From Kineosporiaceae bacterium SCSIO 59966 (GTDB taxonomy: Bacteria > Actinomycetota > Actinomycetes > Actinomycetales > SCSIO-59966), in contig CP052876.1 of the NCBI GenBank assembly GCA_020881835.1, forward strand, positions 1,674,001 to 1,738,000: 64,000 bases of DNA, given 5' to 3'. How positions within the stretch are numbered: the first letter of the stretch is position 1; each line of letters opens with the position of its first letter. A program made the translations under genes and the position numbers. The notes under the pieces are model-generated. The model ran no database searches. It had not been told where the DNA came from and saw only the letters and a program-made list of their open reading frames with translations. This document shows, piece after piece, positions 40,449-42,699 of the stretch.

Positions 40449-41879
40449 TCAGCGACCGCGGCGCGGGCCGCCGGCCCGGGAGACGTCGACCGCCGTCCGC
40501 GCCCGGCCGCCGGAGCGGCGGGAGCGGCTGCGGGTGCCGGACGGCCCGGCCACCGGCACCGGTGCCACTGCGGGCTCGATGTGCGCCGCGCGGTCGCCGA
40601 CCAGGCGGCGCAGCACCGGCGCCCCGGCCGAGGCCGGGGAGTGCTCGGCGGTGATCCCGGCCTGACGCATCAGGGTGCGGACGTCGCCGCGCTGCTCGGT
40701 GAGCATCACGGTGACGACCGTCCCGCCGGCCCCGGCGCGCGCCGTCCGGCCGGAGCGGTGCAGGTAGGCCTTGTGCTCGACCGGCGGGTCGACGTGCACG
40801 ACGAGCTCGACGTCGTCCACGTGGATGCCGCGGGCGGCGATGTCGGTGGCGACGAGCACCCGCACCGCCCCGTCGGAGAACGCCGCCAGGTTCCGCTCCC
40901 GGGCGTTCTGGGAGAGGTTGCCGTGCAGGTCGACGGCGGGGATGCCGGCCGCGGTGAGCTGCTTGGCCAGCTTCTTCGCGGCGTGCTTGGTGCGGGTGAA
41001 CAGCAGCCGGCGGCCGGTGCCGGCGGCCAGCTCGTGGACGACGTCCCGCTTGTCGCCCGGACCGTCCACCGCCAGGACGTGGTGGGTCATGCCGGCGACC
41101 GGAGAGGACGCCGAGTCGACCGAGTGCGTCACCGGGTCGCGCATGTAGCGGCGGACCAGCACGTCGACGCCGTTGTCCAGGGTGGCGGAGAACAGCAGCC
41201 GCTGGATGCCCGCCGGGGTCGCGTCGAGGATCCGCTTGACCCCGGGCAGGAAGCCGAGGTCGGCCATGTGGTCGGCCTCGTCCAGGACGGTGACCTCGAC
41301 GGCGTCCAGGGCGATGTGCCGCTGGCCCATCAGGTCCTCCAGCCGGCCCGGCGTGGCGATGACGATGTCCACGCCGGCGCGCAAGGCGGTGACCTGACGG
41401 TGCTGGGAGACCCCGCCGAACACGGTGGTCACCGACAGCCCGGCGACCGCGGCGAGCGGCTCGAGGACGGCGGTGATCTGGTTGACGAGCTCGCGGGTGG
41501 GCGCCAGGACGAGCCCGCGGGGGTGGCCGGGGCGGGTGCGCCGGCCCCCGGCGGTGAGCCGGGTGAGGAGCGGCAGGGCGAAGGCGAGGGTCTTGCCGCT
41601 GCCGGTGCGGCCGCGGCCCAGGACGTCACGGCCGCGCAGGGAGTCCGGCAGGGTCGCGGCCTGGATCGGGAACGGGGCGGTGATGCCCTGGGCGGTGAGG
41701 ATGGCCGCCAGGGCCGCCGGGACGCCGAGGGCGGTGAAGCCGTCGGCCCCGGCGGGAGCGGCGGCTGGAGCAGTGCGGGTGCTGCGAGGGGACGTGCGAA
41801 CAGGGGACAGCGTGCTGCTGGTCAAGGGGAGGTGCCTTCCGGGCAGAGGGTCGGGGCGCCGCGCAACGGGCACGGACAC
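40449..41879 (-). CDS. DEAD-box RNA helicase
   Basis: 476 residues with the complete motif set: GRTGSGKT (Walker A), PTRELV (Ia), DEAD in VLDEADHM, SAT in FSATLD, and HRSGRTARAG (VI). The C-terminal tail is Arg/Gly/Ser-rich (GTRSRSRRSGG), typical of RhlE-like helicases, and helps RNA binding. It probably remodels RNA in ribosome assembly or cold adaptation. The first 18 codons show no family similarity; a TTG at 41825 following GGAAGG is a serious alternative start. Convergent with the CorC gene, 10 bases apart. Confidence 0.9.
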   Translation of the reverse strand: MSVPVARRPDPLPGRHLPLTSSTLSPVRTSPRSTRTAPAAAPAGADGFTALGVPAALAAILTAQGITAPFPIQAATLPDSLRGRDVLGRGRTGSGKTLAFALPLLTRLTAGGRRTRPGHPRGLVLAPTRELVNQITAVLEPLAAVAGLSVTTVFGGVSQHRQVTALRAGVDIVIATPGRLEDLMGQRHIALDAVEVTVLDEADHMADLGFLPGVKRILDATPAGIQRLLFSATLDNGVDVLVRRYMRDPVTHSVDSASSPVAGMTHHVLAVDGPGDKRDVVHELAAGTGRRLLFTRTKHAAKKLAKQLTAAGIPAVDLHGNLSQNARERNLAAFSDGAVRVLVATDIAARGIHVDDVELVVHVDPPVEHKAYLHRSGRTARAGAGGTVVTVMLTEQRGDVRTLMRQAGITAEHSPASAGAPVLRRLVGDRAAHIEPAVAPVPVAGPSGTRSRSRRSGGRARTAVDVSRAGGPRRGR

Positions 41880-42003: not shown

Positions 42004-42067
42004 CGATCTCTGGAGGCTTTCCGTGGTCTCAAGTGGCCGTGAGACCACGGAAAGCCTCCAGAGATCG
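42004..42067. terminator. Perfect 28-bp hairpin
   Basis: The left arm (42004-42031) and right arm (42040-42067) are exact complements over 28 bases with an 8-base loop. It lies between the stop of the MurJ-tail-like gene (42076) and the helicase start (41879), both leftward, so termination of the former is likely. It is far longer and less GC-rich than needed for that. Between the hairpin and 41880 no other feature is seen. Confidence 0.7.
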
Positions 42068-42075
42068 AGGGGACG

Positions 42076-42699
42076 TCAGGGGGTGGTCAGGGTGGGGGTG
42101 GTGATGTCGGCTCCGTAGCCGTCGCCGCGCTGGGCGAGCGAGGTGACCCAGAGCATCCAGTACCGGTGGGCGCCGGCGTCCGCGGCGGACAGCTCGTTGG
42201 TCCCGGCGACGGTCGTCGTCTCGGCCACCGGTGTCATCCCCTCAGCGGCCCCGGACGGCGGAGCGTCACCGGCGAGCAGGGCGACGGCCACCCCCGCGGA
42301 GGCACTGTCGAACGTCACCGTGCCGACCTCGCGGGGTTCGCCGAGGTCGACGAGCAGGCCGACGCCGGGCTTGAGCCGGCCGAAGTCGGCGGTGGTGTAC
42401 GTCTGGGTGCTCCACGCGCCGCCGCCCTCGTCCTGGAAGCCGCTGCCGCCGACCGGGTCGTAGCTGGTCACCGAGACGGGCTCGATCGCGACGGGCTCCT
42501 GGGTCGGTTCGTCGGTGATGGTGACGACCGGGGTGCCGCCGGCCGGCCCACCGAGCCGGCCGAGCAGGACCCCGGCCCCGGCCCCGAGCACGGCGGCCAG
42601 GACCAGGCTGAGCAGGACGACGGCAAGACCGGGCCCGCCTCGACCGTCGGGGACCGCGGGGACGCCATCGACCGGGGTGACAGGACCGGAGGTGGACAC
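42076..42699 (-). CDS. Membrane-anchored protein with MurJ-tail-like (discoidin-type) domain
   Basis: 207 residues. A proline/glycine-rich cytoplasmic N-terminus, one membrane helix (about 24-46, GLAVVLLSLVLAAVLGAGAG), a Thr/Pro/Glu linker and an extracellular domain with SVTSYDPVGGSGF, STQTYTTADFGRLKPGVGLLVDLG. This pattern resembles the periplasmic C-terminal domain of actinobacterial MurJ (MviN) proteins as I recall it, which has a galactose-binding-like fold. Binding of a wall polysaccharide or partner is an inference. Expressed towards the long hairpin. Confidence 0.7.
   Translation of the reverse strand: MSTSGPVTPVDGVPAVPDGRGGPGLAVVLLSLVLAAVLGAGAGVLLGRLGGPAGGTPVVTITDEPTQEPVAIEPVSVTSYDPVGGSGFQDEGGGAWSTQTYTTADFGRLKPGVGLLVDLGEPREVGTVTFDSASAGVAVALLAGDAPPSGAAEGMTPVAETTTVAGTNELSAADAGAHRYWMLWVTSLAQRGDGYGADITTPTLTTP

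Follow-up and report, generated by a model that had tools for sequence, protein, structure and literature searches.

A perfect 64-bp palindrome in the genome of Kineosporiaceae bacterium SCSIO 59966 is, as judged by sequence, a solo copy of a dispersed family of inverted repeats, and two other members of the family bracket a gene whose product, in structure models, looks like a fusion of an AbiEi-like DNA-binding protein with a Vsr/homing-endonuclease-type domain. Genome comparison reveals the family itself, the bracketing of the gene, the generality of this arrangement across Actinomycetes, arms that are specific to lineages, linked changes in the two arms, and placement at gene 3′ ends. These observations suggest an undescribed, fast-changing partnership between a repeat and a nuclease; no earlier description of a palindrome-nuclease link was found in the literature among open-licence papers. 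The reading that we favor, and hold to be somewhat better than an even bet, is that of a dispersed palindrome family whose AbiEi-like/Vsr-type nuclease partner would bind, cut and homogenize its members, which probably also act as terminators.

The palindrome lies in the window, the 64,000-nucleotide stretch of DNA that was analyzed as a whole (Table 1). The first-pass annotation had described a perfect 28-bp inverted repeat with an 8-base loop, and the arms indeed pair without a mismatch; extended outward to 33 nt, they remain 94% complementary. The same annotation rightly called the hairpin AT-richer than its surroundings, with G/C at 38 of 64 positions (59%) versus 72 to 79% in the surrounding 500-base windows. 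With a palindrome score of 28, the element is the sole site that scores at least 16 across the 64 kb; when the whole window was dinucleotide-shuffled five times, the maxima were 12.5 to 16. As RNA, the 106 nt around the element fold at −79.9 kcal/mol (z = −10.8). A scan for a hairpin plus T run between positions 41800 and 42300, on both strands, found no terminator, and no T run follows the hairpin, unlike in an intrinsic terminator.

Table 1. The palindrome and its neighbors in the window
Feature	Position in window	Strand	Remark
64-bp palindromic element, solo copy	42004..42067 (genome C1:1716004-1716067)	.	one of 16 genomic copies, each exactly 64 bp
Left arm, 28 nt	42004..42031	+	28/28 complementary to right arm
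Center, 8-nt loop	42032..42039	.	sequence varies among copies
Right arm, 28 nt	42040..42067	+	28/28 complementary to left arm
207-aa ORF, neighbor (context only)	42076..42699	-	stop codon 8 nt from element
DEAD-box helicase gene (context only)	40449..41879	-	PF00270, E 1.5e-42

The hairpin had also been placed upstream of a helicase gene. This position is true of the window copy, which lies 125 to 178 nt from the DEAD-box gene start, depending on the start codon chosen, but on its other flank the stop codon of an ORF without a Pfam match shows the general pattern of the copies. Helicase autoregulation and a small RNA were considered and rejected: the 16 copies adjoin many unrelated genes, and in Rfam the element reached no family at the gathering score, the matches being sub-threshold hairpins, mostly microRNA precursors.

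The genome (G000; one contig of 3.095 Mb) was searched at the DNA level, and the copies found were extracted. All 16 have the same length and follow the consensus CGATCTCTGGAGGCTTTCCGGGGTCTC-N10-GAGACCCCGGAAAGCCTCCAGAGATCG, with arm columns that are 95% identical on average and ten center columns (28 to 37 of alignment A1) that average 52%. The family is sharply delimited, given that a covariance model scores the 16 copies at 64 to 90 bits and the next match in the genome at 15.4, with none between. Covariation within the family is modest: five pairs show double changes, and the score of 0.075 versus 0.054 was reached by 8 of 500 shuffles. The best genomic match to the window copy is the copy at C1:552846-552909, one of the two that flank the nuclease gene, and the two have in common a T/A variant at pair 21/44, in both arms. 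A search for other copies had been suggested in the first-pass annotation; because the genome holds 16, the case of no copies elsewhere does not arise. Its phrases "recent or selected" and "mobile-element remnant" pointed in the right direction, toward a family of dispersed repeats that turns over in sequence and is linked to a nuclease gene.

In G000, the palindromes at C1:551670-551733 and C1:552846-552909 bracket a gene of 332 aa (C1:551843-552841). The homologous protein of a second genome, G063, gave an AlphaFold2 model with a pLDDT of 91.1, for which Foldseek found matches to Rv2827c and to the catalytic domain of I-Bth0305I. Alignment with VIA-align separates the two parts: residues 1 to 183 match AbiEi (6y8q, Z 9.5) and 1zel (Z 6.8), and residues 188 to 289 match I-Bth0305I (Z 12.2), NGO0050 (Z 11.4) and Vsr (Z 10.1). 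Sequence matches to known structures are weak but concordant with the fold (3r3p, E 0.031; 3hrl, E 0.091); PF18741 was found in 6/8 and DUF559 in 4/8 members of the protein family, and PADLOC gave a weak AbiEi match in two of three proteins, that of G000 included. In an alignment of 15 nuclease proteins, D246, Y258, G260 and D272 are invariant and H263 is conserved in at least 90%. The C-terminal nuclease domain of the G000 protein was modeled less confidently, with means of about 55 to 83 over 10-residue blocks, and this domain may be decaying, even though the conserved nuclease residues are present despite the poorer model. None of the neighbors of the gene resembles, by reading alone, a nucleotidyltransferase toxin. 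The literature describes the MTES_1575 domain as a Vsr-type nuclease within a large HEPN fusion protein (PMC3710099), and AbiEi and Rv2827c as proteins that bind pairs of 23-bp inverted repeats a few bases apart and that autoregulate (PMC7319586).

The nature of this gene bears on the possibility that the palindromes are classical mobile debris, either a MITE of a DDE insertion sequence or a REP/REPIN moved by a RAYT, which we regard as very improbable. Dispersed intergenic palindromes that prefer gene 3′ ends do recall the REPs (PMC3733652). However, a search of G000 for HUH/Y1 proteins (PF01797) yielded no match, the control search giving matches in 6 of 14 genomes; a RAYT/HUH partner was accordingly rejected, the bracketed gene being AbiEi-like/Vsr-type. 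Furthermore, the consensus lacks the GTAG tag, and 0 of 16 were seen flanking a transposase when the first residues of the neighboring proteins were read. Nor is there a target-site duplication, in which the palindromes differ from such a MITE: over 54 copies from G000, G015, G063 and G003, the mean flanking repeat was 1.35 nt, compared with 1.91 at random places.

Within the order, matches to profile A2 of the protein family occur in 127 of 149 genomes. The G000 palindrome model, run over the order (396 genomes, then nine), detected related palindromes in three genomes, at 24 places in G063, 11 in G015 and 1 in G175, with weaker matches elsewhere. Two of the G063 copies bracket a homologous nuclease gene, and the single G175 palindrome adjoins one; dispersal is not shown for G175 because search model R1 found one place there. 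In G015, whose assembly has 450 contigs, none of the protein matches is bracketed by its 11 palindromes. The copies in this fragmented genome, from another family, represent a sister version (CGATCTCTGGTGGG...).

Searching eight genomes with the protein returned 25 match rows, and many of the genes are flanked by a look-alike pair of palindromes, each locus with its own sequence. Bracketing was then scored as matched palindromes within 500 nt of a gene on both sides: among 70 loci, 23/59 nuclease genes have such a pair versus 0/193 other genes of the same loci. A scan of the contigs of named genomes, including Pseudonocardia, Saccharopolyspora, Klenkia and Amycolatopsis, retrieved no relative with the G000 protein as query and 80 loci with alignment A3, at which 19/58 nuclease genes are bracketed versus 1/286 controls; scored by match coordinates, 9 of 32 loci, partly overlapping with this set, are bracketed. 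After removal of duplicate proteins, the counts are 39/109 nuclease genes versus 1/455 controls (Fisher p 8e-30), and a stricter rule applied to a wider set gives 35/174 versus 2/551, where both of the control genes scored adjoin a nuclease gene. These samples are the highest-scoring entries of ranked lists and were not randomly drawn. Roughly two in three surveyed nuclease genes have no detected matched pair, and therefore the link between palindrome and nuclease is either not universal or often degenerate. Where present, the flanking palindromes center on a length of about 63 bp; the upstream one lies 52 to 399 nt before the start of the nuclease gene, and the downstream one anywhere from 48 nt inside the gene to 109 nt past its stop. 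An imperfect inverted repeat of another kind, 110 bp long (GTCTCGACGGGCTCGACGGG...), was noted in G115 (L110:3156-3265), with a nuclease gene some 0.9 kb away.

The two palindromes of a gene resemble each other far more than those of different loci, with a mean similarity score of 26.4 between left and right of one gene versus 7.9 between loci. Only 7 of 253 between-locus pairs are alike, and these are distributed as 6/16 at protein identities of at least 50% and 1/237 below; the Mantel correlation between proteins and palindromes is weak (0.14, 199/5000 permutations). The nuclease protein diverges faster than its neighbors, for example with 62% identity between the G073 and G007 orthologues versus 80 to 83% for the neighbors. 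Beyond G000 and G063, dispersal of the cognate palindrome was sought from three loci and found every time: in G003 (14 places) and G022 (7 places), in G073 (19 places), and in G023 (22 places, some of them partial at contig ends).

In the draft genome G023, copies of the palindrome sit at, or close to, one end of contigs C22, C29, C37, C43 and C11, which suggests that the repeats break short-read assemblies. In G063, two palindromes overlap through a common arm so that three arms stand in a row (L091:3001-3106; C15:73157-73262), and single arms in this genome are palindromic in themselves (CCCGGAAAGGACCCTTTCCGGG).

The dispersed copies favor the ends of genes. In G000, 9 of 16 have a stop codon 0 to 8 nt away, and 2 of 16 sit between divergent genes. 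In G073, 15 of 17 classified copies fall between 4 nt inside and 14 nt past a stop codon, and 11 of the 17 are surrounded by convergent genes. Across G000, G015 and G063, not one of the 47 classified solo copies is found far within a called gene; in G015, the end of a called ORF is overlapped by one copy. Of 25 codirectional copies, 19 are nearer to the upstream stop.

Comparison of related species indicates that both the presence and the spelling of the palindromes change rapidly. The bracketed gene occupies the same locus in G003 and G022 but is inverted relative to its neighbors. At three G003 solo-copy sites, with three further sites tried left out of the comparison, the orthologous G022 gap contains a different hairpin (two sites) or none (one site). 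Between close species, the synteny of bracketed genes is mostly kept, and therefore movement of the gene itself is seldom observed; among eight syntenic pairs, palindrome similarity is clearly greater within genomes than between species in only two. In two Pseudonocardia species (L253/L279), the neighbors of one flank appear swapped to the opposite flank. At L162/L169 as well as L253/L279, the bracketed gene is inverted with respect to conserved neighbors, the outcome expected if flanking palindromes recombine.

The clearest comparison covers one gap in 18 genomes of G073's genus, between genes that we take, from their sequences, to be DUF3054-like and rdgB. Of the 18, 9 carry a palindrome whose outer motif is TGTGGGC or nearly so (G185 counted by eye; G406 with a long center), 7 lack such a palindrome, and 2 are too fragmentary. 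Several congeners of G073 thus carry a differently spelled version at the orthologous site, the inner arm being rewritten from GTTTGGCGCTATT in G073 to TTTTGGCCCTGTT in G402, AATCGGCAGCTCG in G338 and GATTTCTGG in G007 and G364. Averaged over eight species, the two arms agree at 20.25 of 24 positions within a site, whereas a given arm agrees at 13.4 when species are compared. In G073, copies of the G073 version flank the orthologous nuclease gene on both sides; in G007, copies of the G007 version do so. Within each genome, the gene and the gap share one version, and therefore the copies at the gene and the remote copy vary in concert. In G026, the gap is empty; the repeats that flank the orthologous nuclease gene are degenerate and, as judged by eye, belong to a third version. 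G073 also contains sister palindromes whose outer motif is GTGGG and whose inner arms differ (L354:256-318, L362:3624-3679, L357:1187-1262), and therefore several versions coexist in one genome. Another dispersed repeat, about 100 bp long and distinct from the palindrome reported here, was seen in G073 (L356:707-808); it is roughly 80 to 97% identical, occurs in many genomes of the genus and is sometimes tandem.

Taken on their own, the proximity to stop codons, the very stable fold and the finding of a different hairpin or none in G022 at the three G003 sites would suit terminators without a U tract, TRIT-like elements that are alike by convergence or ancient duplication and functionally unlinked to the nuclease gene. 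We think this quite unlikely as the whole explanation. One type of gene is bracketed by matched pairs against a near-zero background, arm sequences are conserved beyond what pairing demands, some G000 copies lie between divergent genes, and the rewriting of the arms from species to species parallels that of the copies flanking the gene. A terminator role for individual copies is plausible from their position and stability, and it is compatible with the nuclease link, but such a role alone does not explain that link.

The pattern of changes within the arms can be followed among 15 G073 copies, in which nine pairs have changed on both sides (23 cells) and the covariation score is 0.219 versus 0.111, a value reached by 0 of 500 shuffles. 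For example, pair 9/48 is U-A in nine copies, C-G in six and G-U in none, and throughout this family double changes are commoner than G-U intermediates. Conversion between the arms, or the identity of two double-stranded sites, accounts for these changes no less well than RNA pairing does. Many complete double changes without intermediates would also be expected of an operator, that is, of palindromes that simply bind the AbiEi-like protein for autoregulation and for a small regulon or DNA organization, with neither mobility nor cutting; the position of the upstream palindrome before the nuclease gene start and the resemblance of the two 27-bp arms to the repeat pairs of AbiEi and Rv2827c, which autoregulate, point the same way. 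Against an operator function alone, which we consider unlikely, stand the dispersed copies at stop codons instead of promoters, the second palindrome after the gene, the fused nuclease domain and the fast turnover of the sequence.

In the favored partnership of repeat and nuclease, the AbiEi-like N terminus would bind each arm as double-stranded DNA, by analogy with the binding of AbiEi to its inverted-repeat pairs; the arms are read as a putative AbiEi-type site because two 27-bp arms around a free center look like one. The Vsr/homing-type C terminus may then nick or cut the palindrome site or nearby DNA, and repair from another copy would spread the palindrome and keep the two arms, the gene-flanking copies and the dispersed copies alike. 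We infer cutting, repair copying and homogenization because a nuclease fold, dispersal and concerted change occur together. Copies at stop codons would be the tolerated or useful ones, and probably serve in addition as transcription terminators that lack a U tract. More tentatively, and with less than even confidence, we suggest a selfish or domesticated element of the Actinomycetes: its nuclease would recognize the two-armed repeat, cutting and repair copying would spread the repeat to gene 3′ ends, drift of the nuclease's specificity would rewrite the whole genomic set, and each lineage's own version, at the same sites, would serve as terminators.

The current view is that REP-like palindromes depend on RAYT transposases. 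If the partnership is real, it would be a second such solution, built around an unrelated nuclease, implying that populations of enzyme-bound palindromes arose more than once, and it would assign a function to a large, uncharacterized and widespread group of proteins (DUF559/MTES_1575-like). It would also offer a natural system in which the DNA specificity of a protein changes in concert with dozens of its target sites in the genome, and orthologous protein/palindrome pairs make this joint change of specificity directly testable by binding assays.

Several known systems share some of these features. The DNA uptake sequences of Neisseriaceae are species-labelling repeats that occur as inverted pairs at gene 3′ ends, a likeness to the palindromes described here; unlike these, they are far shorter and far more numerous, and we know of no nuclease gene bracketed by them. 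TRIT, which Gardner is said to have described in 2011 as a U-less terminator motif of mycobacteria, reportedly consists of repeated hairpins at gene ends; going by that description, it resembles the present palindromes in being a repeated gene-end hairpin without a U tract, and to our knowledge it has no partner gene. The AbiEi-family antitoxins AbiEi and Rv2827c have in common with the bracketed protein the fold predicted for residues 1 to 183, whereas the present protein is fused to a nuclease and its cognate repeats are dispersed in the genome and stand on both sides of the gene. Free-standing EDxHD/Vsr-type homing endonucleases such as I-Bth0305I are alike in the fold of the catalytic domain, with a weak sequence match; they differ in that the protein here has an N-terminal AbiEi-like domain and in that its gene is bracketed by whole palindromes with many solo copies elsewhere, and no occupied/empty pair for the nuclease gene was found among the loci examined.

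The closest parallel is to REPtrons and TIRtrons. REPs and REPINs are dispersed intergenic palindromes near gene 3′ ends with species- and gene-specific sequences (PMC3733652; PMC3116915), and in REPtrons copies of the repeat bracket the RAYT transposase gene in the same layout (PMC3733652); all of these features, including a dedicated gene bracketed by the same repeat, recur here. Conversely, the gene here is an AbiEi-like/Vsr-type nuclease instead of an HUH tyrosine transposase, the unit is longer (mostly about 56 to 67 bp, with arms of about 27 bp), and the G000 family is without a GTAG/CGTC tag, its consensus starting with CGATCTCTGG and ending with CCAGAGATCG. What is new relative to REPtrons is the same layout built with neither an HUH protein nor a GTAG tag.
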